A stretch of 64,000 bases of DNA from positions 124,001 to 188,000 of the forward strand of contig JADFDO010000005.1 in assembly GCA_018262855.1 (NCBI GenBank), read 5' to 3'. Position 1 is the stretch's first letter. Each line of letters opens with the position of its first letter. The notes beneath the pieces are model-generated. The model was not told the origin of the DNA. It made no database searches and was given only the letters and a program-made list of their open reading frames with translations. This stretch comes from Methanolinea sp. Its GTDB lineage: Archaea > Halobacteriota > Methanomicrobia > Methanomicrobiales > Methanospirillaceae. Positions 3,493 to 18,522 of the stretch are shown one piece after another. Both the position numbers and the translations under genes were made by a program.

Positions 3493-3854
3493 GTAACTCT
3501 CTCACTGGTGTGTATACTCCAAGTATTTAACTTTAGAGAATTGTACACATGCCTTTCTGATTAGATCCAGGGGAATTGTCTCTCCGGTGCCTATCGGTTC
3601 CAAAAAGGAGTAACCATACATATCCATGAATGATTACAAATGCATGAAAATGAAGCGATATTTCCATTACTGTCAATATTAACTGCCAGATCTTTTGTAA
3701 GATGAATCATAAAGCAGTGTAGTATCAATATCTTTAGTTGCAGTTATCCTGTCCCATTAATACAGGAAATCACAATACCTATGGAAAAATACTTCACATA
3801 TTTCCAGCCACTCCGCTGGTGATAAAGTGAAGAGAATTTGTGGAAAGAACAACC
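3493..3854. other. Divergent intergenic region with promoters
   Basis: A 362-base AT-rich gap between two divergently transcribed genes. On the minus strand TTAAATAC near 3519-3527 could serve the sulfite-reductase-like gene. On the plus strand a short perfect hairpin (CCAGC/GCTGG, about 3806-3821) lies some 35 bases before the DUF364 start. No open frame with protein-like composition and no RNA gene were seen. Confidence 0.4.
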
Positions 3855-4607
3855 ATGAGCGATTCGCACATTCTTGACGACCTGCTTTCAAACCTCCCGG
3901 AAGAACCAGTCCCGGTCCGGTCGGTTCTTGTCGGGGTGCACTGGACTGCAGTATGCAGCCGGCATTGTGGTCTTGCCACGACCATTATTTCGAGTAAACC
4001 GCATGATCACACGACTTTTGTCCGAGGGGTCGGGAATCTGCATCACAAGTCTGCACAGGAGCTGGCTGAATATTCGCGTTCCGAAAACAGACTGGAGGCA
4101 AGTATCGGCGTCGCAGCAATCAACTCCCTTCTTTTCATGGACGACCGGGATGCGGTTGAGATGAATGCATCCGAAGTGCTTGTAAAGAAGGGCGCCGGAA
4201 AAAACGTGGCACTTGTGGGACATTTCCCTTTTATACCCAAGTTGCGCAGGTCTGTGAAAAATCTCTGGGTGATCGAGCAGCAACCTGCTGAAGGTGATTA
4301 TCCTGCTCACTCCGCTGCGGATTTTATCCCTCAGGCAGATATTGTCGCACTCACCGGCAGTGCCCTGATCAACCATACCCTTGATGATCTGCTCTCATTG
4401 TGCCGCCCTGATGCACTGGTTATGGTACTTGGACCGAGTACGCCAACCTCAGAGGTGATGTTTGATCACGGGGCGGCCATTATTGCCGGTACACAGGTGA
4501 TTGACGAGGACGCTGTGATGCAGACTGTCGGACAGGGTGCAACCTTCCAGCAGGTCAAAGGTGTGCGAAAACTGGCCTACACCCGCAAAGGAACATTCCA
4601 GGCCTGA
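3855..4607 (+). CDS. DUF364/DUF4213 family protein, putative heavy-metal chelation
   Basis: About 250 residues matching the family annotated as putative heavy-metal chelation (an N-terminal DUF4213-like segment followed by a DUF364 Rossmann-like domain). Seen: HWTAVCSRHCGLATT near the N-terminus, GHFPFIPKLR in the middle and a GPSTPTSEVMFDHGAAIIAG stretch near the C-terminus. The ATG at 3855 was preferred; an in-frame GTG at 3840 would add five residues. The gene converges on the molybdate/tungstate transporter operon, so a role with molybdate, tungstate or a cofactor precursor is possible but only inferred from position. No biochemical function is established for most members. Confidence 0.75.
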   Translation: MSDSHILDDLLSNLPEEPVPVRSVLVGVHWTAVCSRHCGLATTIISSKPHDHTTFVRGVGNLHHKSAQELAEYSRSENRLEASIGVAAINSLLFMDDRDAVEMNASEVLVKKGAGKNVALVGHFPFIPKLRRSVKNLWVIEQQPAEGDYPAHSAADFIPQADIVALTGSALINHTLDDLLSLCRPDALVMVLGPSTPTSEVMFDHGAAIIAGTQVIDEDAVMQTVGQGATFQQVKGVRKLAYTRKGTFQA

Positions 4608-4700: not shown

Positions 4701-5762
4701 CTAATCACCATTGACCGGAATCACATGAACCGCGGTCGCCTTGAACGTTGCATACACCTTCTCTCCCTGCGCAAGATGAAGGTCGGCGCAGCTTTCCCTT
4801 GTGAGGAGCGCCATGAGAGGGAATCCCACGTCAAGAATTACCCTCACGGTATTCCCGAACGGGATAATCTCCGAAACGGTTCCAAACAGGCTATTGCGTG
4901 CGCTGGATGCAAATGGCGCTTCCGATACGATGACATCCTCGGCATGGAGTGTTGCCACCACTTCTCCCGAGACAGGGGAGACGGCAAAGAACTCCGGTCC
5001 GGTGCGGGGAGTGATCCGGGCAATACTCCCCTTACTGGATGCGTTACCCCGGATCATATTTCCAATTCCAAGGAATTCTGCAACGAACGTATCAGAAGGA
5101 TGCAGGAACACGTCAGACGTATCCCCCACCTGTACAATCCGCCCTTCACGCATGATGGCAATTCTGTCGGCGATTGCATAGACATCGTCAAAATGGTGGG
5201 TAATCTGGATGATGGTCGTCCCCGTTATCTTCCGGACTCGGGAGAGTTCGCTCCTCATCCGCTCCCTCGTGCGGCTGTCGAGTGCACTCAGGGGTTCATC
5301 AAGTAACAGCACTTCCGGTTTGAGTATCAGGGCTCTTGCCAGGGCAACCCGCTGCTGTTCACCTCCTGAAAGGGACCCCGGATACCTCCGGAGGAGGTGC
5401 GAAATCTCGAGCATGGTGCATATCTCAGCCACCATGGAGTGCTGCTCATCCTTTGGTATTTTTCTCTGCTGCAATCCGAACGCGATATTCTGTTGAACGG
5501 TAAGATGGGGGAAGAGCATGTAGTCCTGGTAGACCATCCCGATGTTCCTTAGACGTGGTCCGATGGAGGTAATCTCCCGGTCATTGAGGTAAATCCTTCC
5601 GGATTCGGGAATATGAATGCCAGCAATTGTCTCAAGGAGCACGGTTTTCCCCGCGCCTGTAGGGCCGAGGATGATAAAATATTCATTATCCCTGATTTCC
5701 AGTGATGCGTCCCGTACGGAGAATTCACCCAATGTGATCGAGAGAGACTCAATTCTCAGCAA
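4701..5762 (-). CDS. modC: Molybdate/tungstate ABC transporter ATP-binding protein
   Basis: A 353-residue ABC ATPase. Walker A is GPTGAGKT (residues 33-40), the signature is LSGGEQQRVALARAL, and Walker B is VLLLDEPLSALD. The C-terminal 110 residues form a TOBE-like domain (segments GTVSEIIPFGNTVRVILDVG and GEKVYATFKATAVHVI), which in ModC/WtpC proteins binds oxyanion and regulates transport. It follows modB after 12 bases and is the last gene of the transporter operon. Molybdate and tungstate cannot be told apart from sequence, so WtpC or TupC are alternatives. Confidence 0.9.
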   Translation of the reverse strand: MLRIESLSITLGEFSVRDASLEIRDNEYFIILGPTGAGKTVLLETIAGIHIPESGRIYLNDREITSIGPRLRNIGMVYQDYMLFPHLTVQQNIAFGLQQRKIPKDEQHSMVAEICTMLEISHLLRRYPGSLSGGEQQRVALARALILKPEVLLLDEPLSALDSRTRERMRSELSRVRKITGTTIIQITHHFDDVYAIADRIAIMREGRIVQVGDTSDVFLHPSDTFVAEFLGIGNMIRGNASSKGSIARITPRTGPEFFAVSPVSGEVVATLHAEDVIVSEAPFASSARNSLFGTVSEIIPFGNTVRVILDVGFPLMALLTRESCADLHLAQGEKVYATFKATAVHVIPVNGD

Positions 5763-5774
5763 AGGTAGGTCCTC

Positions 5775-6548
5775 CTAAAACACGTGCACGCCCCTGTCGA
5801 AGTATTCAACTGCGCACAGGGTAGCAAGGGATATCATAATGAGTATCGTCGCAGCCGCCACTGCAAGACTCAGGTCCCCTGTCGATATATTCAGGTAGAG
5901 TGCAATGGGCAGCGTTTCGGTTCTCATGGTTGTAGCCCCTGCAACCAGCAATACCGCACCGAATTCCCCCATGGCTTTTGACCAGGTTATGACCGTCCCG
6001 GCAAGGAGCCCGGACCTGGCCATTGGCAGAGTAACATGGAAGAATGCACCTGTATCCGTGCAACCGAGTGTTTTTGCAACATTTTCGTACCTTGGGTTGA
6101 CAGTGCTGAAGGCCGATCGCAAAATCCGGATCATATAGGGAATATTCACGAACACCTCTGCCACAATGATGCCAAGCGGGGTAAAGATCACCGCAAAGCC
6201 CGCAGCGTCGAGTGCCTTTCCCCATGGGGTCGTTCCAAAAAAGAGAAGGAGGGCTATCCCCGCGACCAGAGGTGGAAGGGTAAGCGGGAGGGTTAATGCA
6301 AGGGTTGCGATCCTTTTTCCGAGAAATTGGTAGCGAGCAAGGGCATACGCGACGGGAACCGCGATCGCGATGCATATCCCGGTCGATGCCATACTTGTCA
6401 GAAGGCTGAGCAGGATCGCAAACCGTATCTCAGGACTCGACACACTGGCTATCAGCACGGGGAGAGGAGAATACAACACCAGGCCTACGAGGATGGCACT
6501 GATGGTGAGGAGCACCAGATAGGTAAGGACGAGGGAGAATCTTTTCAT
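5775..6548 (-). CDS. modB: Molybdate/tungstate ABC transporter permease
   Basis: A 257-residue membrane protein with about six hydrophobic segments. It carries the binding-protein-dependent transport signature around residues 160-180 (ENVAKTLGCTDTGAFFHVTLP), the EAA-type loop that contacts the ATPase. It sits between the TrmO-like gene (26 bases upstream) and modC (12 bases downstream). The late motif KAMGEFGAVLLVAG is characteristic of ModB/WtpB permeases. It forms the oxyanion channel in the cytoplasmic membrane. Confidence 0.92.
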   Translation of the reverse strand: MKRFSLVLTYLVLLTISAILVGLVLYSPLPVLIASVSSPEIRFAILLSLLTSMASTGICIAIAVPVAYALARYQFLGKRIATLALTLPLTLPPLVAGIALLLFFGTTPWGKALDAAGFAVIFTPLGIIVAEVFVNIPYMIRILRSAFSTVNPRYENVAKTLGCTDTGAFFHVTLPMARSGLLAGTVITWSKAMGEFGAVLLVAGATTMRTETLPIALYLNISTGDLSLAVAAATILIMISLATLCAVEYFDRGVHVF

Positions 6549-6574: not shown

Positions 6575-7072
6575 CTACTGTCCTATCTCAATATCACCGG
6601 TGGCAAGGAGACTTGCTTTCCTGATCTTCTCGATATGTTGTGCTGATACCCATCCCGTTCCAGCATCGGCGATACAGTCAAATGCCGGGATATACGGTTT
6701 GATGTCGAGAACCGGAGTTCCATCAAGGAGATCCATGCCATTGACATACAGCATCCCATCAGTTACCTTTTCCAGCTTGACGTAGGAGATCCCGATCGGA
6801 TTGGGACGGTTGAAATGGCGGGTGGAAAAAATGCCGTGTGGTGTTTCGCCATCCACCAGAGGCGGCTCTGTCAGGGCTTTCCGGGTTGCACGGTCAAAAT
6901 GATACAGGATAATGAGATGGGAGAATCCATCGATGCTCCCGAGGCCTTCCCGGAATTCCGGGAAGATCTCGATGGTTCCTTTCGCAAGCGTAAAAGTACT
7001 GTGAACGGGTGGAGCACCGGCATTGCGGAACGGGGAATGAGCAACGCCGATTTGTGTGTACGTGATCACCAT
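6575..7072 (-). CDS. TrmO-like (UPF0066) SAM-dependent methyltransferase embedded in the mod operon
   Basis: About 165 residues of the TrmO/YaeB beta-barrel family. Seen motifs are QIGVAHSPF at the N-terminus, the SAM-binding GIFSTRHFNRPNPIG stretch and DGTPVLDIKPY. Characterised bacterial TrmO methylates N6-threonylcarbamoyladenosine at tRNA position 37. The ATG at 7072 was chosen because it follows modA by 28 bases with GGAG upstream; a longer frame to 7150 would overlap modA. Its place between modA and modB argues for co-expression with metal uptake, so a role outside tRNA modification should be considered. The substrate is therefore open. Confidence 0.82.
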   Translation of the reverse strand: MVITYTQIGVAHSPFRNAGAPPVHSTFTLAKGTIEIFPEFREGLGSIDGFSHLIILYHFDRATRKALTEPPLVDGETPHGIFSTRHFNRPNPIGISYVKLEKVTDGMLYVNGMDLLDGTPVLDIKPYIPAFDCIADAGTGWVSAQHIEKIRKASLLATGDIEIGQ

Positions 7073-7100: not shown

Positions 7101-7937
7101 TTACGGTTTGACATCCGCGTATGCCGGGTCCGGGTAGCTCGGGAAACCATGCTTTACAAAGATCGCCTTCCCCTCATCTGATGCCACGAAATCTGCAAAT
7201 TTCCTCGCATTATCCTGGTTTTTCGAAAAGGTCGTTACACCGACGGGGACGATTAATACTTCATTGATAGTGGTCGGAATTGCGATCGAATCCATGGTCT
7301 TGAGATCGACATTGTCAAGCGTGAGGAGAGAGGCATCGGCCTGGCCGGTATTCATGAGGACAACGAGTTCATTGATTGTCGGGGTCCTGGTAATGACATT
7401 CTTCTCAACCGCATTGGTGATGTTGAGTTTCTTAAAAATTTTCGCACCTGCTTTACCAATGGCGGTTGCATTCACGTCACCAAGGGCAATCTTTAAACCC
7501 GGCCTGCCAAAGTCCTGGAGCGTTGTGATATTTTTCGGATTTCCTTTCTGCACGGCAATTACAGGAACGTGATAGGCAACCAGCTGATATGGGCCTGCAA
7601 GACCCTGATTCATCGCGGTATTATACTCAACCGTGGAACCCGTAATAAACACATCGCCTTTTCTTGTGAGGTTCATCTGGCTGATGAGAAGCCCGCTTCC
7701 GGCATAGTTATACTGGACCTCAATACCATATTTCCGGGTAAACTCCTGGCCGATATCATCCATCGCAGCTTTAAGTCCTGCCCCGGAATACACAAGAATG
7801 GCAGCCTGGGAAGATGCAGGCGAGGGTGTTGCATCCTGTGGGGTGATGCATCCCGGTACTACCGCAGCAATGATGAGGAAGAGAGATATGATAAATCCCA
7901 TCCTGGCACATGGCATATGGAACAGTTCCTTTTTCAT
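7101..7937 (-). CDS. modA: Molybdate/tungstate-binding lipoprotein of ABC transporter
   Basis: A 278-residue substrate-binding protein. A hydrophobic signal segment (residues 13-28) ends in the lipobox-like VPGC, so Cys30 is the probable lipid-anchored N-terminus. A Thr/Pro/Ser linker follows, then the ModA-type domain with LVYSGAGLKAAMDDIGQEF, which contributes oxyanion ligands, and GDVFITGS. It is the first gene of the operon modA-trmO-like-modB-modC. Specificity for molybdate versus tungstate is not decidable here. The presence of Mo/W enzymes on both sides supports the assignment. Confidence 0.88.
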   Translation of the reverse strand: MKKELFHMPCARMGFIISLFLIIAAVVPGCITPQDATPSPASSQAAILVYSGAGLKAAMDDIGQEFTRKYGIEVQYNYAGSGLLISQMNLTRKGDVFITGSTVEYNTAMNQGLAGPYQLVAYHVPVIAVQKGNPKNITTLQDFGRPGLKIALGDVNATAIGKAGAKIFKKLNITNAVEKNVITRTPTINELVVLMNTGQADASLLTLDNVDLKTMDSIAIPTTINEVLIVPVGVTTFSKNQDNARKFADFVASDEGKAIFVKHGFPSYPDPAYADVKP

Positions 7938-8112
7938 GGGAAAAAGTCACAAAACCATGCATGATTAATAATTTCATTTTATTGCAGGTTTCAATCAATT
8001 TACCATTATTGACATATAAAAAACAGCGTTGAGATAAAAGTACTTAACTTGAAAAGAAATATGATAAACGCGCACAGGTACCATTCGTAAAACCGTGATT
8101 GGCAGGGTGGTT

Positions 8113-8916
8113 ATGATACCGGAGATCGAGGATCAAGATTACGATTCCAGACCGATGAAACGCGAATATGACGTGATTTCCATCGATGGAGACACTCATT
8201 GTATTCGGAATGTCCAGGTCTGCCGTGAGGTGAGGGTGAATCTTGAGGTAAACGGGGTTCACATAGCATCACTGACAGCAAGTCCCCGCGAACTTGCGGA
8301 ATTTGCGTGCGGTTATTGCATCACCGAAGGTATCGTGAGACAGATATCGGACATCGTGAAGGTAGAAACTGATGGGAATCATATCCGGATTACGGTTTTT
8401 GATATCGACAAGTCCACCCTCTCCCGCCCCAAGGAGATACGTACCTCGGGGTGTGTGGGAATTGTCCAGGATGCCGGAGAATTTGGGATCGAGCTGCCCA
8501 CGGGCACCAGGGTATCCCGGGCTGTCATTTTTTCTGCAATGGAGTGTCTCAATGACCACGCTGTTCTGTGGAGGGAGACTGGAGGCACACACTGTACCGT
8601 CCTGTATGACAGTCACGGAACTGCTGTGTCCCATGCAGAAGATGTGGGCAGGCACAATTCGGTTGACAAAGCGATAGGAAAGGCACTGCTTTCGGGGATT
8701 GACACCGGCAAGACTTTTCTCTGCTGCTCGGGCAGGATGCCCGAGGGAATGGTGAGTAAAGTATACCACGCAGGGATCCCCATCGTAGTTACGAATAATG
8801 CCCCTTCGGCGGCGGGCATAGATCTTGCAAGGAGAGTCAACCTGACTCTCGCCGGGTTTGTTCGTCCCCCTAGGATGAATATCTACAGTGCTCCTGAACG
8901 TATTCTCGTGGACTGA
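8113..8916 (+). CDS. fdhD: Formate dehydrogenase accessory protein FdhD (sulfurtransferase)
   Basis: A 267-residue FdhD-family protein. In bacteria FdhD passes sulfur from a cysteine desulfurase to the molybdenum cofactor of formate dehydrogenase. Seen: FACGYCITEGI, the loop RTSGCVGIV, GTHCTVLYD, EDVGRHNSVDKAIGKAL and SGRMPEGMVSK. In Escherichia coli FdhD the loop carries CxxC; here only the first cysteine (Cys114) is present, followed by VGI. ATG at 8113 is preferred with GGGTGG just upstream; GTG at 8095 is an alternative. The context of fdhAB and fwd supports the role. Confidence 0.9.
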   Translation: MIPEIEDQDYDSRPMKREYDVISIDGDTHCIRNVQVCREVRVNLEVNGVHIASLTASPRELAEFACGYCITEGIVRQISDIVKVETDGNHIRITVFDIDKSTLSRPKEIRTSGCVGIVQDAGEFGIELPTGTRVSRAVIFSAMECLNDHAVLWRETGGTHCTVLYDSHGTAVSHAEDVGRHNSVDKAIGKALLSGIDTGKTFLCCSGRMPEGMVSKVYHAGIPIVVTNNAPSAAGIDLARRVNLTLAGFVRPPRMNIYSAPERILVD

Positions 8917-8927
8917 AGGACCACAAC

Positions 8928-9761
8928 TCAGGTCCTACAAATGCGTGCTGAAAAGAGATCCTCATCCCTGCAGGAGAGGATGAACGGAATATCCCCGGGT
9001 AATTCTGTCAGGATGAAATCAACCCTGCATCCCACTGCGGATAATCCTAAGTATTCAAGCCCTTTTCTTCTCTCATCGGGAATGATGTGCAGTCTCCCAT
9101 TCCCATAGCGTGCTGCCGTAATCCCGATAATGCTGTCCGAGATGCAGGGATGATTCCCCATAGAGAGATACACTTCTTTGAGGTTGAGATCTCCTCCAAG
9201 GATGCTGGTGGCGTGCTCAGCGATCCTGACGGCAACCGCCGCCCCCGGACACCATTCTCCATGGTAATTCACAGCCTCCCGGATGAGCATTTCGCGGTAT
9301 TCAGACTGCCCCATTTTCTGTATCTTGTCTGATCGGTCATGATGGGTAGCAGAAAAAACACAGTCCCAGCCTCGTTGATAAGGCTTGATATCAATCACAG
9401 GTGTGCCCTCAATACAGTCTATGTTTTCGACATCAAGGATCCCTTCCCGGGGTATTCCCAGGAGCCTGACAACGCTCACAGAAATGGGATTCGGCCTTGA
9501 CGGCGACCGGAGAGAGAAGATCCCTTTTTCGGGAAGTTCTTCGGAGATCTTCCTTGCTCTCGCCCGTAACAGGTCCCGCTGACCGTGATGCATCCAGGCG
9601 AGGACGATAAGATGGGAGCTGGTCTCCACCCCGTCAAGAGCGGGGAGGTATGGGGGAAAGACCTCGATCTGCCCTCTCACTCCCTGAACAGGCATCTGGC
9701 CTTTTTCGACGATAGGGCAATGGACTACTCCTATGGGCACGAGTTCGATCCGGTCTTTCAT
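8928..9761 (-). CDS. TrmO-like domain fused to an FmdE-like domain
   Basis: A 277-residue two-domain protein. Residues 1-145 match the TrmO family (PIGVVHCPI, GIFSLRSPSRPNPIS, EGTPVIDIKPY). Residues 155-265 resemble the FmdE family. They contain HGEWCPGAAVAVR, equivalent to the HGHxCPG signature, and GNHPCISDSIIGITAARYGNG, equivalent to the second cysteine-containing FmdE segment. FmdE proteins were first linked to molybdenum formylmethanofuran dehydrogenase, but their reaction is unclear. The gene converges with fdhD and lies next to a second FmdE-like gene. The function is unknown; a methyl-transfer or metal/pterin-related step is speculation from domain content. Confidence 0.78.
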   Translation of the reverse strand: MKDRIELVPIGVVHCPIVEKGQMPVQGVRGQIEVFPPYLPALDGVETSSHLIVLAWMHHGQRDLLRARARKISEELPEKGIFSLRSPSRPNPISVSVVRLLGIPREGILDVENIDCIEGTPVIDIKPYQRGWDCVFSATHHDRSDKIQKMGQSEYREMLIREAVNYHGEWCPGAAVAVRIAEHATSILGGDLNLKEVYLSMGNHPCISDSIIGITAARYGNGRLHIIPDERRKGLEYLGLSAVGCRVDFILTELPGDIPFILSCRDEDLFSARICRT

Positions 9762-9821: not shown

Positions 9822-10469
9822 TCATGTTATTTTCTCATAATATGCCATGCTACCGCATGCAGCACATTTATCGCCCTCCATCATGTATTCAGGAACCTGG
9901 TCTCCACATACAGGACACGTGACAGAATTCCATTTCTTCTTGTGGGTTACTCTCATCTTTATCCGTTCATGAGAGAACATACCCTGCCCCGCTGCCAGAA
10001 TCTCGTCTGCCAGTTGCTTTTTCATGGTCGCAGGTTTAAATGAAGGGCTGTTGTCATACCAGGAGGAGATGGTCGGATATTTTTTTAACTTCTCCTTGTC
10101 GAGATAGACACGGATACCCTCTGCAGACTCCTTTGCAGAGAAGGGGGTCAGTGTCATGGCAAATTTTCCGATGGGGAGAACCCGGAGACGGTGATTCCCT
10201 GTCGTCGCATGCATGATTATCTGGGGGGGATCGGGGAGGCACTTGGTGGTCTCGCACGTGACAAAGATCTTATCTTCGGGCTTTTTGCCGAGGAGGGTGA
10301 GTGCATAGTCCACCATAAACACTCCGATCAGCATTCCAGGGGCGGCATAGGTATGGAAGTCGATGCATTTCCGAAATGATTCACGAAGTTCATTCGGCAT
10401 TCCCATTGCATCCATCTTTGAAAGAAGTTCAGCCGATGAATATTCAGGTATGGCTGGCATGTGTACCAT
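9822..10469 (-). CDS. FmdE-family protein with C-terminal zinc ribbon
   Basis: A 215-residue protein. Residues 30-130 match the FmdE fold (FHTYAAPGMLIGVFMVDYAL, ETTKCLPDPPQIIMHATTGN). The usual HGHxCPG signature reads HTYAAPG, so the second His and the Cys are missing. The C-terminus carries two CxxC pairs (CPVCG and CAACG), a zinc ribbon as in FmdE/FmdD-like proteins of methanogens. It lies about 60 bases upstream of the TrmO-FmdE-like gene on the same strand and is divergent from the fdhA1 operon. A second in-frame ATG three codons downstream is also possible. Confidence 0.75.
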   Translation of the reverse strand: MVHMPAIPEYSSAELLSKMDAMGMPNELRESFRKCIDFHTYAAPGMLIGVFMVDYALTLLGKKPEDKIFVTCETTKCLPDPPQIIMHATTGNHRLRVLPIGKFAMTLTPFSAKESAEGIRVYLDKEKLKKYPTISSWYDNSPSFKPATMKKQLADEILAAGQGMFSHERIKMRVTHKKKWNSVTCPVCGDQVPEYMMEGDKCAACGSMAYYEKIT

Positions 10470-10965
10470 ATTGGTAAAAAAAATGCTTAAATGTTCACAA
10501 TAAAGGAATAGTAAACCTTGTTAATTTTACTTAATCTCCGCGCAAGAATTCAACGTTTTTCTTCCTTTGAAATTCAAATACCAAAGAATTTATTCCGGGA
10601 CAATCATCCCGGTCAACCACAAACACCTTTAAATAAGGATATTTTCCAAATTTACTGAGTATAATTACTTCTTTTAATATGGTGTGCATATAAATTTAAT
10701 TTAGTTAATTTTTTCTTTGAGTGGAGTATATTCAATGATTGTCAGGGGGGTTTGATGCCCTCTCCCCAGGCACTTACCGTTTCACCAGGAAACAATGCCC
10801 TGAGACTGGATAGGGTGTGGAGAGATGATCCAGATTGTATCTCCACGTATCAACCTGACTTCAACAATTTCAAAAAAAAACCAAAGTGTGTTACAGGCGA
10901 ATCGCATGAAACTCCTGTCTTTCTTAAGAGGAGAACAATCTGGAACAGAGAAGGAGAACATTACA
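10470..10965 (+). promoter_or_regulatory. fdhA1B1 promoter and long leader region
   Basis: A 496-base AT-rich gap between two divergent genes. A TATA-like CATATAAAT lies at 10687-10695, followed by the 11-mer TTTAGTTAATT at 10700-10710 that also occurs in the fwd promoter region. If this TATA is used, the leader before the fdhA1 start is roughly 245 bases. Weak open frames within it have no protein-like character. Close to the FmdE-like start an interrupted inverted repeat (TACCA-TAT-TGGTA, 10464-10476) is present. Confidence 0.5.
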
Positions 10966-13038
10966 ATGGCTAAAGCATCTGAACCAGTCTTGAAATATGT
11001 ACCCACTACCTGCCCGTACTGCGGCGTCGGATGTGGGCTCAACCTCGTAGTCAACGAGGGAAAGGTGGTTGGCGTCGAACCCAACAAGCGCACTCCCATA
11101 AACGAGGGCAAGCTCTGTCCCAAGGGAATGACCTGCTGGGAACATGTCCACAGCCCCGATCGGCTGACAAAGCCGAAGATCAAGAAGGGCGGCAAGTTCG
11201 TGGACGCATCCTGGGATGAAGCCATCGACCTGATTGCAAAGAAGTTCAAGGAGATCTCGGACAAAAACGGGCCCAAATCACTTGGCTTCCAAACATCCTG
11301 CCGTACGGTTAACGAAGACTGTTACGCGCTACAGAAGTTCGCCCGCGTTGGCTTCCAGACCAACAACGTCGATAACTGTGCCCGTATCTGCCACGGACCA
11401 TCAGTTGCAGGGCTCTCGCTGTCGTTCGGCTCTGGTGCCGCAACCAACCCGTTCGAGGATGTCCTGAACTCCGACCTGATCATCATGTGGGGGTCCAATG
11501 CCGTAGAAGCTCACCCGCTCGCCGGTCGGCGCATCATGCAGGCCAAGAAGCGTGGCATTCCGATTATTGTGATCGACCCGCGGTTCAGTACATCGGCACG
11601 GCTCGCCGACCATTATGTCCGGTTCAATCCGTCGACACACATAGCACTTGCCAATTCCATGATGTACTGGATCATCAAGGAGGGGCTCCAGAACACGGCG
11701 TTCATCAACGAGCGTACTAAAGGCTTCGACGACCTCAAGAAAACGGTCGAGAAGTATGCTGACTGCACGGAGATTCATGGTGTCCCGCTCGAAACTGTCA
11801 AGGACGTTGCTCGAAAGTATGCGAGGGCAAGGAATGCAGTCATCATCTACTGCCTCGGCATCACCGAGTTAACCACCGGTACCGACAACGTCCGTTCGAT
11901 GGGCAACCTCGCGCTGCTGACTGGGAACGTTGGCCGCCCGGGCGTTGGTGTCAACCCTCTCCGCGGCCAGAACAACGTGCAGGGTGCCTGCGACATGGGT
12001 GCGTACCCGAACGTCTACTCCGGTTACCAGGCCTGCTCCGTTCCTGACAACCGTGCCAAGATGGAGAAGGCATGGGGCATGAAGGAAGGCTCCCTGCCCG
12101 ACTGGTATGGATCAACACTGACCGAGCAGATTAATGATGCCGGAAACCCGATCAAGGCGATGTACTTCCTGGGATTGAACCCGGTTGTGTCATATCCCGA
12201 TTCGAACCATGTCATGAAGCAGCTGGAAAAGCTTGACTTCTGCGTCATGCAGGACATTTTCTGGAATGAGAGCTGCGAGTATGCTGACGTGGTCCTGCCA
12301 GGCACCTGCTTTGCCGAGAAAGACGGGACGTTCACCAGTGGTGAGAGGCGGATTAACCGTGTCCGCAAGGCCGTCGACGGCCCGGGCGAGTCGAAGTACG
12401 ACTGGGAGATCATCGCGATGGTCGCAAAGAAGCTGGGCCTCAAGGGTTTTGACTGGAAGACCGCCAACGACGTCTGGGATGACATGCGGGCATGTACGCC
12501 GAACATGTTTGGGTGCACCTACGAGAAGATGGGGAAGCCCGAGTCAGTCCACTGGCCATGCCCGGCAATCGACCACCCCGGCACCCCGATTCTCCACATC
12601 GGGAAGTTCTCGGCCGCGGATGGCAAGGGAACGATGTTCGGCCTCGAGTACCGCCAGCCCGCGGAAGTTGCGGATGATGAATATCCGTTCACCCTCATGA
12701 CCGGACGTGTCATATTCCATTATCACACGAGGACACAGACCGATCGTGCAAAGCAACTGCACTATGAGGTGCCCGAGTCCTATATCCAGATCAACACCAT
12801 CGATGCAAAGAAACTGGGCATCAAGGAGAACGAGAAGATCAAGGTTTCAAGCCGGCGTGGTCATATTGAGACCCTTGCACGTATATCCGACGATGTTGCG
12901 CCTGGTGTTACTTACATGGCCATGCACTTCCACAAGGGTGCAAACACGCTCACCAACACAGCACTCGACCCGCTCTCCAAGATGCCGGAGCTGAAGCACT
13001 GTGCGATAAAGATCGAAAAGATTGCGGGGGCGAAGTAA
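10966..13038 (+). CDS. fdhA: F420-type formate dehydrogenase alpha subunit, copy 1
   Basis: A 690-residue catalytic subunit that oxidises formate to CO2 at a Mo/W-bis(pterin) centre. Cys16, Cys19, Cys23 and Cys51 bind the [4Fe-4S] cluster. DNCARICHGPS places Cys142 at the position occupied by selenocysteine in Escherichia coli FdhF, so no UGA recoding is needed. The ATG at 10966 was chosen for AAGGAGA nine bases upstream; the frame extends 47 codons further upstream, but that part is not protein-like. fdhB starts directly after the stop. A close paralogue lies at 15203. Confidence 0.95.
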   Translation: MAKASEPVLKYVPTTCPYCGVGCGLNLVVNEGKVVGVEPNKRTPINEGKLCPKGMTCWEHVHSPDRLTKPKIKKGGKFVDASWDEAIDLIAKKFKEISDKNGPKSLGFQTSCRTVNEDCYALQKFARVGFQTNNVDNCARICHGPSVAGLSLSFGSGAATNPFEDVLNSDLIIMWGSNAVEAHPLAGRRIMQAKKRGIPIIVIDPRFSTSARLADHYVRFNPSTHIALANSMMYWIIKEGLQNTAFINERTKGFDDLKKTVEKYADCTEIHGVPLETVKDVARKYARARNAVIIYCLGITELTTGTDNVRSMGNLALLTGNVGRPGVGVNPLRGQNNVQGACDMGAYPNVYSGYQACSVPDNRAKMEKAWGMKEGSLPDWYGSTLTEQINDAGNPIKAMYFLGLNPVVSYPDSNHVMKQLEKLDFCVMQDIFWNESCEYADVVLPGTCFAEKDGTFTSGERRINRVRKAVDGPGESKYDWEIIAMVAKKLGLKGFDWKTANDVWDDMRACTPNMFGCTYEKMGKPESVHWPCPAIDHPGTPILHIGKFSAADGKGTMFGLEYRQPAEVADDEYPFTLMTGRVIFHYHTRTQTDRAKQLHYEVPESYIQINTIDAKKLGIKENEKIKVSSRRGHIETLARISDDVAPGVTYMAMHFHKGANTLTNTALDPLSKMPELKHCAIKIEKIAGAK

Positions 13039-14196
13039 ATGGCAAAGAAAGGCGATATGCTCTATGCATGGACCACCGATTCCGCACTTGCAAAGAAGGC
13101 GGAGTGCGGAGGCGCAGTCACAGAGCTACTGAAGTATGCACTCGAGAGCAAGACTGTGGACGCAGTACTTGCTGTAAAGAAGGGTTTTGACCTGTACGAC
13201 GCAGTCCCGACCATCGTGACAGATCCGAAGGACCTTGACGAATGCGCAGGTTCGCTCCACTGCGGAACGATTCTTCTCTCCAAGCTGGTGATGGAATACG
13301 CACCGAAGCTGTCCGGTAAAAAGATTGGGATGGTTGTCAAGGGTTGCGACATGATGGGCCTTCTGGAGATGGCGAAGCGAAACCAGGTTAACCTTGACAA
13401 CATCGTCATGATCGGTGTCAACTGCGGGGGGTCGGTCAGCCCGGTTGCCGCACGGAGGATGATCAAGGAGAAATTTGGCGTCGATCCAGATAAGGTCACC
13501 AAGGAAGAGATCGACAAGGGTCAGTTCATCATCGAGTACGAGGGCGGCCACAAGGGGATCAAGATGGACGACCTCGAGGATGAAGGATACGGCCGCCGCA
13601 GCAACTGCCGCCGCTGCAAGGCGAAGATCACCCGTCAGGCTGATCTCGCCTGCGGGAACTGGGGCGTCATCGGCGACAAGGCCGGAAAGGCCACTTTCGT
13701 CGAGGTCTGCTCCGACAAGGGTGCAAAACTCCTCGACGGAGCAGTGAAAGCGAAGAAACTTACCACGGAACCGGCAGACCCCAAGGGCATCGAGATCAGG
13801 GCAAAGACCGAGAATGCGATGCTCAAACTTGGCGACAAGTGGCGCAAGCGCGACTTTGAGGCACTCAGGTCCAACCTTTGGGAGTCTATTGCCAAGGAGA
13901 CTGCACGCTGCATGAAATGTGGGGCCTGCATCGCACATTGCCCTGTCTGTTTCACCCGTGCTGACAAGTATGAGCAGTCCGAGCCCGATATAATGGTCCG
14001 TGCAGGTTTCATACCGGCAGACCCGATGTTCCACCTGCGCCGCTTCGCGCACATCTCGGACTCCTGCGTAAACTGTGGGCAGTGCGAGGAGAATTGCCCC
14101 TGTGAGATACCGCTTGCGCTCTTCTCGCATGCGATCCGCACAGAGGCAGACAAGTTCTTCGAGCCGAAACTCGGGAAGTCGGCCTACACCAACTAA
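13039..14196 (+). CDS. fdhB: F420-type formate dehydrogenase beta subunit, copy 1
   Basis: A 385-residue FrhB/FdhB-family flavoprotein that moves electrons from FdhA to coenzyme F420. Seen: HCGTILL, KGCDMMGLLEM, GVNCGGSVSP, GYGRRSNCRRCK and ACGNWGVIG, the F420/FAD and iron-sulfur core. The C-terminal bacterial-ferredoxin part has CMKCGACIAHCP and CVNCGQCEENCP. Compared with FdhB2 it is 30 residues shorter, the stretch after the first cluster differs, and a C-terminal tail is missing. Its start codon directly follows the fdhA stop. Cytoplasmic. Confidence 0.95.
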   Translation: MAKKGDMLYAWTTDSALAKKAECGGAVTELLKYALESKTVDAVLAVKKGFDLYDAVPTIVTDPKDLDECAGSLHCGTILLSKLVMEYAPKLSGKKIGMVVKGCDMMGLLEMAKRNQVNLDNIVMIGVNCGGSVSPVAARRMIKEKFGVDPDKVTKEEIDKGQFIIEYEGGHKGIKMDDLEDEGYGRRSNCRRCKAKITRQADLACGNWGVIGDKAGKATFVEVCSDKGAKLLDGAVKAKKLTTEPADPKGIEIRAKTENAMLKLGDKWRKRDFEALRSNLWESIAKETARCMKCGACIAHCPVCFTRADKYEQSEPDIMVRAGFIPADPMFHLRRFAHISDSCVNCGQCEENCPCEIPLALFSHAIRTEADKFFEPKLGKSAYTN

Positions 14197-15202: not shown

Positions 15203-17269
15203 ATGAGTGATGAAAAAGCACCACTGAAATATACCACGACAACCTGCCCGTACTGCGGAGTAGGCTGTGGCCTGAACCTCGTATCAAAGGGGAACACGCT
15301 CGTTGGTGTCGCACCGTTCAAAAGGAGCCCGATCAACGAAGGGAAGCTCTGCCCGAAGGGTGCGACCTGCTGGGAAACGGTCCAGAAGCCGGGCCGTCTG
15401 ACCAAGCCCCTGATCAAGAAGAATGGCAAGTTCGAGGAAGCATCCTGGGACGAAGCCCTTGACCTGATTGTCAAGAAGTTCACAGAGATTTACAAACAGG
15501 GTGGCCCCAAGTCGGTTGGCTTCCAGACATCCTGCCGTACCGTGAATGAGGACTGTTATGCGCTTCAGAAGTGGGCCCGGTGCGGGTTTTTGACCAACAA
15601 CGTGGACAACTGCGCCCGTATCTGCCACGGACCTTCTGTTGCAGGGCTCTCGCTCTCGTTCGGATCGGGTGCGGCTACCAACCCCTTCGAGGATGTCCTG
15701 AACTCTGACCTGATCGTGATGTGGGGTTCCAATGCTGTCGAGGCCCACCCGCTTGCCGGGCGCCGCGTCATGCAGGCCAAGAAAAAAGGAATCCCGATCA
15801 TCGTGGTTGACCCGCGGTTCAGCCCAACGGCACGTCTTGCCGACAAGTATATCCGCTTCAACCCCTCGACCCACATTGCGCTCGCCAACAACATGATGTA
15901 CTATATCATCAAGGAAGGGCTCGAGGACAAGGAGTTCATCAAGGAGCGGACAAAAGGATTCGATGACCTGAAGAAAACTGTCGAGAAGTATGCAGATGCC
16001 ACGAATATCCATGGTGTCGACCAGGAGACGGTCAAGGACTTTGCCCGCCAGTATGCGAAAGCAAAGAACGCAGTCATCATCTACTGTCTCGGTATCACCG
16101 AGTTAACCACCGGTACCGACAACGTCCGTTCGATGGGCAACCTCTCGCTGCTCACCGGTAACATCGGCCGCCCCGGTGTGGGTGTCAACCCGCTCCGCGG
16201 CCAGAACAACGTCCAGGGTGCCTGTGACATGGGTGCATACCCGAACGTCTTCTCCGGGTACCAGGCCGTCGCCGTGCCGGAGAATCGTGCCAAGCATGAA
16301 AAGGCCTGGTTCCTCAAGGAAGGGTCCCTTCCGGATTGGTATGGCGTGACCCTGACCGAGCAGATCAACCAGGCCGGCGACCCGATCAAAGCTATGTACT
16401 TCCTCGGCCTGAACCCGACAGTCTCCTACCCTGACTCGAACCATGTAAGGCGACAACTCGAGAAGCTCGATTTCTGCGTGATGCAGGATATCTACTGGAA
16501 CGAAAGCTGCGAGTATGCTGACGTGGTCCTTCCAGGAACCTGCTTTGCCGAGAAGGATGGCACGTTCACCAGCGGCGAGCGGCGTGTCAACCGTGTCAGG
16601 AAGGCCGTTGACGGTCCCGGGGAATCCAAATACGACTGGGAGATCATCGCCATGCTCGCGAAGAAGATGGGCCTCAAGGGATTCGACTGGAAGAGTGCCA
16701 AGGACGTCTGGGACGACATGCGTGCAGTCACGCCCGGTCAGTTCGGAGTCACCTACGAAAAGATGGAGAAGCCCGAGTCGGTCCACTGGCCCTGCCCGAC
16801 CATAGAGCACCCGGGGACTCCCATCCTCCACATAGGGAAGTTCTCTGCAGCCGATGGCAAGGGAACGATGTTCGGCCTCGAGTACCGCCCACCGGCGGAA
16901 GTTGCGGATGCAGAGTATCCGTTCACCCTCATGACAGGGCGTGTAATCTTCCACTATCACACGCGGACCCAGACTGACCGGTCCCCAACCCTGCATTACG
17001 AGGTGCCCGAAAACTGGGTCCAGATCAACACGCAGGATGCGAAGGAACTCGGTATTGCCCAGCACGAGAAGATCAAGGTGACGAGCCGCCGTGGAGAATC
17101 CATCGCAGTTGCACGCGTGACTGATGAAGTCGGCCCCAAGGTAATGTACATGCCAATGCACTTCTACCTGGGTGCAAACAACCTCACCAACACCGCGCTC
17201 GACCCGCTCTCAAAGATGCCGGAGCTCAAGCACTGTGCTGTCAAGGTTGAGAAGATCAAGGAGGCCTGA
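15203..17269 (+). CDS. fdhA: F420-type formate dehydrogenase alpha subunit, copy 2
   Basis: A 688-residue paralogue of the copy at 10966, with the same motif set: CPYCGVGC near residue 15, KLCPKG, and DNCARICHGPS with active-site Cys141. Most of the protein is nearly identical to copy 1. A 51-base block is identical between the genes (11860-11910 and 16094-16144), which suggests recent duplication or gene conversion. It has its own promoter region with a different operator-like sequence, so the two copies are probably expressed under different conditions. It is followed after five bases by fdhB2. Confidence 0.95.
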   Translation: MSDEKAPLKYTTTTCPYCGVGCGLNLVSKGNTLVGVAPFKRSPINEGKLCPKGATCWETVQKPGRLTKPLIKKNGKFEEASWDEALDLIVKKFTEIYKQGGPKSVGFQTSCRTVNEDCYALQKWARCGFLTNNVDNCARICHGPSVAGLSLSFGSGAATNPFEDVLNSDLIVMWGSNAVEAHPLAGRRVMQAKKKGIPIIVVDPRFSPTARLADKYIRFNPSTHIALANNMMYYIIKEGLEDKEFIKERTKGFDDLKKTVEKYADATNIHGVDQETVKDFARQYAKAKNAVIIYCLGITELTTGTDNVRSMGNLSLLTGNIGRPGVGVNPLRGQNNVQGACDMGAYPNVFSGYQAVAVPENRAKHEKAWFLKEGSLPDWYGVTLTEQINQAGDPIKAMYFLGLNPTVSYPDSNHVRRQLEKLDFCVMQDIYWNESCEYADVVLPGTCFAEKDGTFTSGERRVNRVRKAVDGPGESKYDWEIIAMLAKKMGLKGFDWKSAKDVWDDMRAVTPGQFGVTYEKMEKPESVHWPCPTIEHPGTPILHIGKFSAADGKGTMFGLEYRPPAEVADAEYPFTLMTGRVIFHYHTRTQTDRSPTLHYEVPENWVQINTQDAKELGIAQHEKIKVTSRRGESIAVARVTDEVGPKVMYMPMHFYLGANNLTNTALDPLSKMPELKHCAVKVEKIKEA

Positions 17270-17274
17270 GTACC

Positions 17275-18522
17275 ATGTCTAAGAAAGGCGATTTACTCTA
17301 TTCATGGACCAACGACCCGGAGATCCAGAAGAAAGCGGAACTCGGCGGTGCAGTCACCACCCTGTGGAAGTATGCACTCGAATCCAAGATGGTTGATGCA
17401 GTCTTCGTGGTCACCAAGGGTGTTGACCTCTATGATGCCAAGCCGGTTCTGGTCACCGATCCCAAGGATCTTGCCAGTACTGCCGGATCGCTCCATTGCG
17501 GCACGCTTCTTTTGCCCAAACTCATCAAGAAATTCTATAACGGGGCAAGGGACATGAAGATCGGTGTCACGGTCAAGGGCTGCGATATGATGGCGTTCTA
17601 CGAACTCGCCAAGCGCCAGCAGATCAACCTTGACAATATCATCATGATTGGGGTCAACTGTGGAGGATCGGTCAGCCCGGTCGTTGCCCGGAAGATGATC
17701 AGGGAAAAATTTGAAGTCGACCCGGACAAGGTGCACAAGGAGGAGATTGACAAGGGACAGTTCATCATCGAGTACGAGGGAGGCCACAAAGGCATCTCTG
17801 TTGACGAGCTCGAAGAGGCTGGATATGGTCGCCGCAGCAACTGCCGCCGCTGCAAACTCAAGATCCCCCGGCAGGCAGACCTTGCCTGCGGGAACTGGGG
17901 CGTCATCGGCCCCAGGGCAGGAAAGGCCACCTTCATCGAGGTCTGTTCTGAGAAAGGTGCGAACCTGCTCGACGGTGCGGTCAAGAAAGGGATGCTTGCA
18001 ACAGAACCAGCAAATCCCAAGGGAGTCGAGATACGCGCCAAGGTCGAAAACGCGATGTACAAGCTCAGCGACAAATGGCGCAAGCACGATTTCGAATCAC
18101 TCGGCGAGGGCAAGGACCGCCTGAATAAGATCATGAGCGAAACCTCCCGGTGCATCAAGTGCTACCAGTGCATCGAGGAATGCCCCATCTGCTACTGCGT
18201 GGAATGCACGACTAAGAATCCGACGTATGTTCCGCCCGGGGAACTCCCGGTCAGTTTCATGTTCCACCTTATCAGGTACGCCCACATAGCTGACTCATGT
18301 GTGAACTGCGGGCAATGCGAAGAGGTCTGTGCCGCCGAGATACCGAACGCACTCTTCATGCATTCCCAGCAGGTTGAGCTCGAGAAGATGTTCGGACACA
18401 CCCCTGGAATCAACATGGAACTGCCACTCCTGGCATATGTCGAGGAGAAGGAGGAGAGATTAAGGCTCCACAACACCGGCAGCGATATGATCTACGAGAA
18501 CGTGTTCAAACCGTTAAAGTAA
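17275..18522 (+). CDS. fdhB: F420-type formate dehydrogenase beta subunit, copy 2
   Basis: A 415-residue F420-reducing subunit, paralogue of the copy at 13039. The core (HCGTLLL, KGCDMMAFYEL, GVNCGGSVSP, GRRSNCRRCK, ACGNWGVIG) is shared. The first C-terminal cluster reads CIKCYQCIEECPICYCVEC with extra cysteines and the second CVNCGQCEEVCAAEIP. A C-terminal extension of about 45 residues follows that copy 1 lacks. The longer tail is the usual FdhB form. The differences may alter partner choice, for example association with heterodisulfide reductase; this is inference. Confidence 0.95.
   Translation: MSKKGDLLYSWTNDPEIQKKAELGGAVTTLWKYALESKMVDAVFVVTKGVDLYDAKPVLVTDPKDLASTAGSLHCGTLLLPKLIKKFYNGARDMKIGVTVKGCDMMAFYELAKRQQINLDNIIMIGVNCGGSVSPVVARKMIREKFEVDPDKVHKEEIDKGQFIIEYEGGHKGISVDELEEAGYGRRSNCRRCKLKIPRQADLACGNWGVIGPRAGKATFIEVCSEKGANLLDGAVKKGMLATEPANPKGVEIRAKVENAMYKLSDKWRKHDFESLGEGKDRLNKIMSETSRCIKCYQCIEECPICYCVECTTKNPTYVPPGELPVSFMFHLIRYAHIADSCVNCGQCEEVCAAEIPNALFMHSQQVELEKMFGHTPGINMELPLLAYVEEKEERLRLHNTGSDMIYENVFKPLK

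Follow-up and report, generated by a model that had tools for sequence, protein, structure and literature searches.

Why should a gene of the TrmO family, in which only tRNA enzymes have been characterised (PMC4132733), be found inside an operon for molybdate or tungstate uptake? This arrangement occurs in a stretch of 64,000 nucleotides from Methanolinea sp. (hereafter the window), in which a preliminary description had noticed a TrmO-like gene lying between modA and modB. The features of the locus are the following:

3840-4607, plus strand: DUF4213/DUF364 protein, putatively involved in heavy-metal chelation (context in PMC2954201), convergent with modC
4701-5762, minus strand: modC/wtpC-type ATPase with a TOBE domain (profile matches)
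5775-6548, minus strand: modB, TIGR01581-type permease, of the score band that bears an upstream TrmO gene in relatives
6575-7072, minus strand: TrmO_N (UPF0066) gene of the mod-linked clade, 165 amino acids, without the C-terminal DPRxxY domain
7101-7937, minus strand: modA, molybdate/tungstate-type substrate-binding protein (TIGR01256, above cut-off)
7938-8094, no strand: divergent intergenic region between modA and fdhD, with a palindrome and a TATA-like stretch
8095-8916, plus strand: fdhD, formate dehydrogenase sulfurtransferase (profile match), divergent from modA
8928-9761, minus strand: fusion of a second TrmO_N domain with an FmdE domain, of a separate clade linked to moeA, fdhD, fdhA and fmdE
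9822-10469, minus strand: stand-alone FmdE protein (profile match)

Along the minus strand, the open reading frames of the window give the order modA, TrmO-like gene, modB and modC, with successive gaps of 28, 26 and 12 bp, in agreement with the 12-28 bases first described. The transporter genes keep the usual order of ModABC and WtpABC systems, from which the operon differs by the additional TrmO gene that separates modA from modB, by an ATPase nearest to WtpC and by a ModB of the TIGR01581 (hypothetical-equivalog) type. Among the NCBIfam profiles, TIGR01581 fitted ModB best (234 bits for a cut-off of 210), TIGR02141 being barely passed (182.9 bits for a cut-off of 182.6). The ATPase reached 429.5 bits with WtpC (cut-off 440) and likewise stayed under the modC cut-off; because it falls between WtpC and ModC, below both cut-offs, the transporter may serve either molybdenum or tungsten. 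The modA/fdhD intergenic region contains the palindrome AAGTACTT (around 8038-8045), which is kept in two Methanolinea genomes, and a TATA-like stretch (around 8013-8024), and either of them could have a regulatory role. Two closely alike fdhA-fdhB pairs also follow one another in the window (10825-14196 and 15203-18522).

The TrmO-like protein matched the Pfam profile PF01980 with 127.4 bits (cut-off 26.8) and the NCBIfam profile TIGR00104 with 131.3 bits (cut-off 93.25). Its predicted structure (pLDDT 76) has the class VIII beta-barrel TrmO fold, and the fold search retrieved AF0241 with bound SAM (PDB 2nv4; Z 14.7, rmsd 2.9, 114 residues), followed by the Pseudomonas TrmO (Z 14.6) and, past the TrmO structures, by nothing but middling ribosomal-protein matches. 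In the alignment, the SAM-contacting Arg92, Asp125 and Lys136 (E. coli numbering) correspond to R85, D114 and K125, and the best reading of the sequence is that the protein would bind SAM. It shares with AF0241, an archaeal UPF0066 protein, the fold, a single-domain organisation and about 40% identity, but AF0241 belongs to another clade and has no His-Phe signature (see below).

With the E. coli TrmO (YaeB, the tRNA m6t6A37 methyltransferase), the window protein shares the TrmO_N beta-barrel and the three SAM-contacting residues. It differs by its location in a mod operon, by the loop H-F-N instead of S-T-F, by His24 in place of the SAM-contacting Gln25 (a change common to the Methanolinea copies), by its acidity (pI 5.9, with a clade domain median of 5.55 versus 8.8 for the E. 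coli N-domain) and by the lack of the C-terminal DPRxxY domain, since the sequence stops at residue 165 and contains no DPR anywhere. This C-terminal domain is needed by the E. coli enzyme for tRNA methylation and is found in no archaeal TrmO, and m6t6A has not so far been seen in archaeal tRNA (Kimura et al., PMC4132733). We thus did not file the window protein as a tRNA m6t6A enzyme, because of the missing DPRxxY, the change of Gln25 to His24, the acidic domain and the undetected archaeal m6t6A. An RNA methyltransferase, acting on t6A37 or on another site of tRNA, whose position in the operon would tune translation to the Mo/W supply, could still be suggested by the family name, the fold and the activity of the characterised members, but, although a serious rival, it appears rather improbable in view of these same differences, including the altered active-site loop, and of the presence of an AF0241-type paralogue among the four TrmO_N genes recovered by profile search in the window's genome. 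The authors who discovered TrmO suggested that the archaeal proteins may act on another RNA or on a protein, and left their role open while noting many copies in several archaea, with seven in one of them (PMC4132733).

Is the association peculiar to this genome? For an unbiased count, we joined all TrmO_N matches to all ModB matches in 59 genomes of the family to which the window's genome belongs. In this set, 33 of 124 TrmO genes had a ModB-type permease within 4 kb, for about one expected, the binomial figure for this excess ignoring shared ancestry and thus not being a probability. For 20 of the 29 ModB genes whose scores fall in the same band as the window's ModB (165-195 bits), a same-strand TrmO gene lay no more than 600 bp away, in every case on the upstream side; none of the 34 higher-scoring ModB genes had one. 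Since ModB of this band also occurs without TrmO in some of these genomes, TrmO is dispensable for transport. The modA-TrmO-modB arrangement is kept at two Methanolinea loci (79-81% identity) and at six Methanoculleus loci (55-59% identity), and several loci from these genera have another TrmO gene upstream of their modA. At locus L111 (6573-7113), an extra TrmO copy, broken into two overlapping partial frames, adjoins the intact one.

The wider survey covered 194 TrmO genes in three samples. ModB was found within 3 kb of TrmO for 43 of 111 genes in Methanomicrobiales (a descriptive fraction, because this sample was hand-picked from hit lists, the unbiased figure being the one obtained above with the 59 genomes), for 6 of 43 in other Halobacteriota and for 0 of 40 in Desulfobacterota. 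The exact order modA-TrmO-modB was observed for 31 of the 47 TrmO genes near mod genes, other families included, and many of these loci exhibit the 4-bp overlaps that are typical of coupled translation. The preliminary description had called for a survey of archaeal genomes and had held that the metal link would fall if the association were unique to one genome; this is not the case, because the link is kept in several families and with several transporter types, and the TrmO-like gene is very probably co-transcribed with the metal-uptake genes, as had been proposed from the gene order.

Two broader interpretations were rejected. A general bacterial link between TrmO and mod genes is contradicted by the Desulfobacterota, in which none of the 40 TrmO genes was near modA or modB, and by the ordinary neighbours of the bacterial single-domain matches (loci L043, L044 and L050-L054). 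Nitrogenase supply was discarded as the general reason for the association, nifD being missing from the window's genome (no match over cut-off, the best one reaching 122 bits) and, by our reading, from about half of the genomes with a mod-linked TrmO.

In the TrmO-domain tree, the window protein branched within a clade in which 38 of 46 members have mod neighbours (local support 0.88). The same 46-leaf clade, with 38 mod-linked members, was recovered in an unfinished maximum-likelihood tree (IQ-TREE, without support values). The mod-neighbour label required 13 changes on the TrmO-domain tree versus 42 when shuffled (shuffle minimum 34), and some TrmO genes outside the clade likewise adjoin mod genes. 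Within the clade, the alignment exhibited strong conservation of R85 and D114 (100% each), of K125 (97%) and of Gln at position 24 (97%). The SAM-contacting arginine is immediately followed by a clade-specific His-Phe-Asn (H86-F87-N88) in place of the usual residues, with H86 present in 98% of the clade versus 3% elsewhere and Phe87 in 87% versus 0%. Of the 49 genes with His86, 38 were mod-linked, versus 9 of the 141 genes without it. Both motifs quoted in the preliminary description, DGTPVLDIKPY being one of them, are present in the window protein; the label "SAM motif" given to the other is justified for R85, which contacts SAM in homologues, but H86-F87-N88 is a signature of the mod-linked clade. 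The corresponding loop (84-88) is a low-confidence part of the predicted structure, so that its geometry is not readable from the model.

Operon membership combined with a conserved active-site signature of its own suggests, therefore, that the protein probably participates in metal handling rather than in tRNA modification. From these comparisons of sequences, we tentatively favour, with a confidence that stops just short of even, that it may be a specialised SAM-binding TrmO_N paralogue made together with the Mo/W ABC transporter, and a methyltransferase whose substrate would take part in Mo/W handling. According to this proposal, Methanomicrobiales and some other Halobacteriota would produce a class VIII beta-barrel paralogue alongside the molybdate/tungstate transporter, which would most likely methylate a small molecule binding or carrying the metal after its entry, for instance a dithiolene pterin or a thio-oxometalate ligand. 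The preliminary description had suggested a SAM-dependent step in pterin or oxyanion metabolism, which is a candidate role beside regulatory or RNA roles. The His24 of the window copy, at the place of a SAM-contacting Gln, and the occurrence of ModB of this score band without TrmO count against the proposal. The identity of this substrate is the weakest step, and the gene neighbours point to a shared pathway, not to a substrate. Methylation within Moco metabolism has a precedent, because the formation of urothione from Moco in humans requires thiopurine methyltransferase (PMC9607355). For DUF364, both heavy-metal chelation and pterin-like synthesis have been proposed from structure and context (PMC2954201).

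Other TrmO paralogues are also located among Mo/W genes, their neighbours being tupA or tupABC, MOT1-type molybdate transporters, moeA, fdhD and fdhA, as well as FmdE with FecBCD-type transporters, DUF364 and FeMo-co-domain proteins. The second TrmO-like domain reported as fused to an FmdE-like domain was indeed recovered from the window, on its minus strand. The idea that two TrmO genes are tied here to Mo/W thus holds for the neighbourhood of the fusion, which is beside moeA, fdhD and fdhA, but this copy formed its own clade, separate from that of the mod-linked protein. Its architecture is that of the published FmdE-UPF0066 fusion (PMC2954224), described as an architecture only, to which the present analysis adds the link with moeA, fdhD and fdhA; its predicted structure (pLDDT 36 from three sequences) was unusable. 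The remaining copy in the window's genome, besides the AF0241-type one, branched in the His86 clade and is adjacent to radical-SAM and MinD-type ATPase genes.

Several other neighbourhoods were encountered in the survey. In a genome of another family, a 17-kb Mo/W island (L220:1636-17976) contains three TrmO_N genes together with moeA, two fdhD matches, a fwdB-like gene, FmdE, MOT1 and two modABC sets. In other Halobacteriota, fusions join TrmO_N to a dCTP-deaminase-like (DCD) domain (L202:6787-7641, L233:6307-7281 and L235:6718-7584), and a DJ-1/PfpI domain precedes TrmO_N in a single fused protein adjoining moeA (L223:6749-7786). TrmO genes located amid MinD-type ferredoxin ATPases, FeMo-co-domain proteins, DUF134 or DUF364 (L168:2135-9084, L073:7414-9965 and L225:6890-7345) form clusters reminiscent of the neighbourhoods of orange-protein (Mo-Cu) genes in anaerobes. 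A conserved protein of about 110 amino acids recurs near mod, tup or MOT1 genes and TrmO (L113:8216-8560, L109:9916-10263, L150:9171-9536, L151:10816-11151, L154:9135-9593, L155:9063-9542 and L156:6261-6689); it had no Pfam match over cut-off and a weak resemblance to GntR-type helix-turn-helix proteins, and is a candidate Mo/W regulator.

These paralogues bear on the possibility that the protein acts without catalysis, as a SAM sensor or accessory subunit that gates ModBC, for instance via the TOBE domain, and couples Mo/W import to the methyl-group status. The tightly coupled position of the gene, with the binding protein on one side and the permease on the other, and the crystallisation of the homologues AF0241 and RPA0152 with endogenous SAM (PMC4132733) are consistent with such a role, which, although a serious rival, we nevertheless consider rather unlikely, given that paralogues with the same SAM residues occur beside moeA, fdhD or FmdE where there is no transporter, or form fusions with FmdE, DCD or DJ-1 domains, and that the SAM residues are very strictly conserved throughout the clade. 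Neutral hitchhiking of a gene that entered an ancestral mod operon and has since been passed on with it, although compatible with the concentration of most mod-linked genes in one clade and with the existence of TrmO-free mod operons in this ModB score band, is very improbable considering the TrmO genes that adjoin mod genes outside the clade, the association of other paralogues with unrelated Mo/W genes and the conservation of the clade-specific active-site signature.

The FmdE-UPF0066 architecture (PMC2954224) and the abundance of archaeal TrmO paralogues (PMC4132733) are already known. Within the open-licence literature, we found no earlier report of the position of TrmO in mod operons or of its clade signature, nor any publication linking TrmO, UPF0066 or COG1720 to molybdate transport; the publications consulted on Methanothermobacter and Methanothermococcus mention mod genes with no link to TrmO. 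In Methanothermobacter, the locus numbers given in PMC3087415 imply that modB and modC are separated by at least one gene.

The equivalog label that automatic annotation assigns is probably misleading for the mod-linked subfamily. The methyltransferase favoured here could be extended to Halobacteriota, in the form of a SAM-dependent methylation, hitherto unrecognised, that serves Mo/W handling and is performed by the TrmO_N subfamily with the His-Phe-Asn active site, a more doubtful proposition which, if true, would also assign a role to the multiple TrmO paralogues of archaea. The conserved operon and the clade-specific signature make the role of archaeal TrmO a testable Mo/W question in methanogens.
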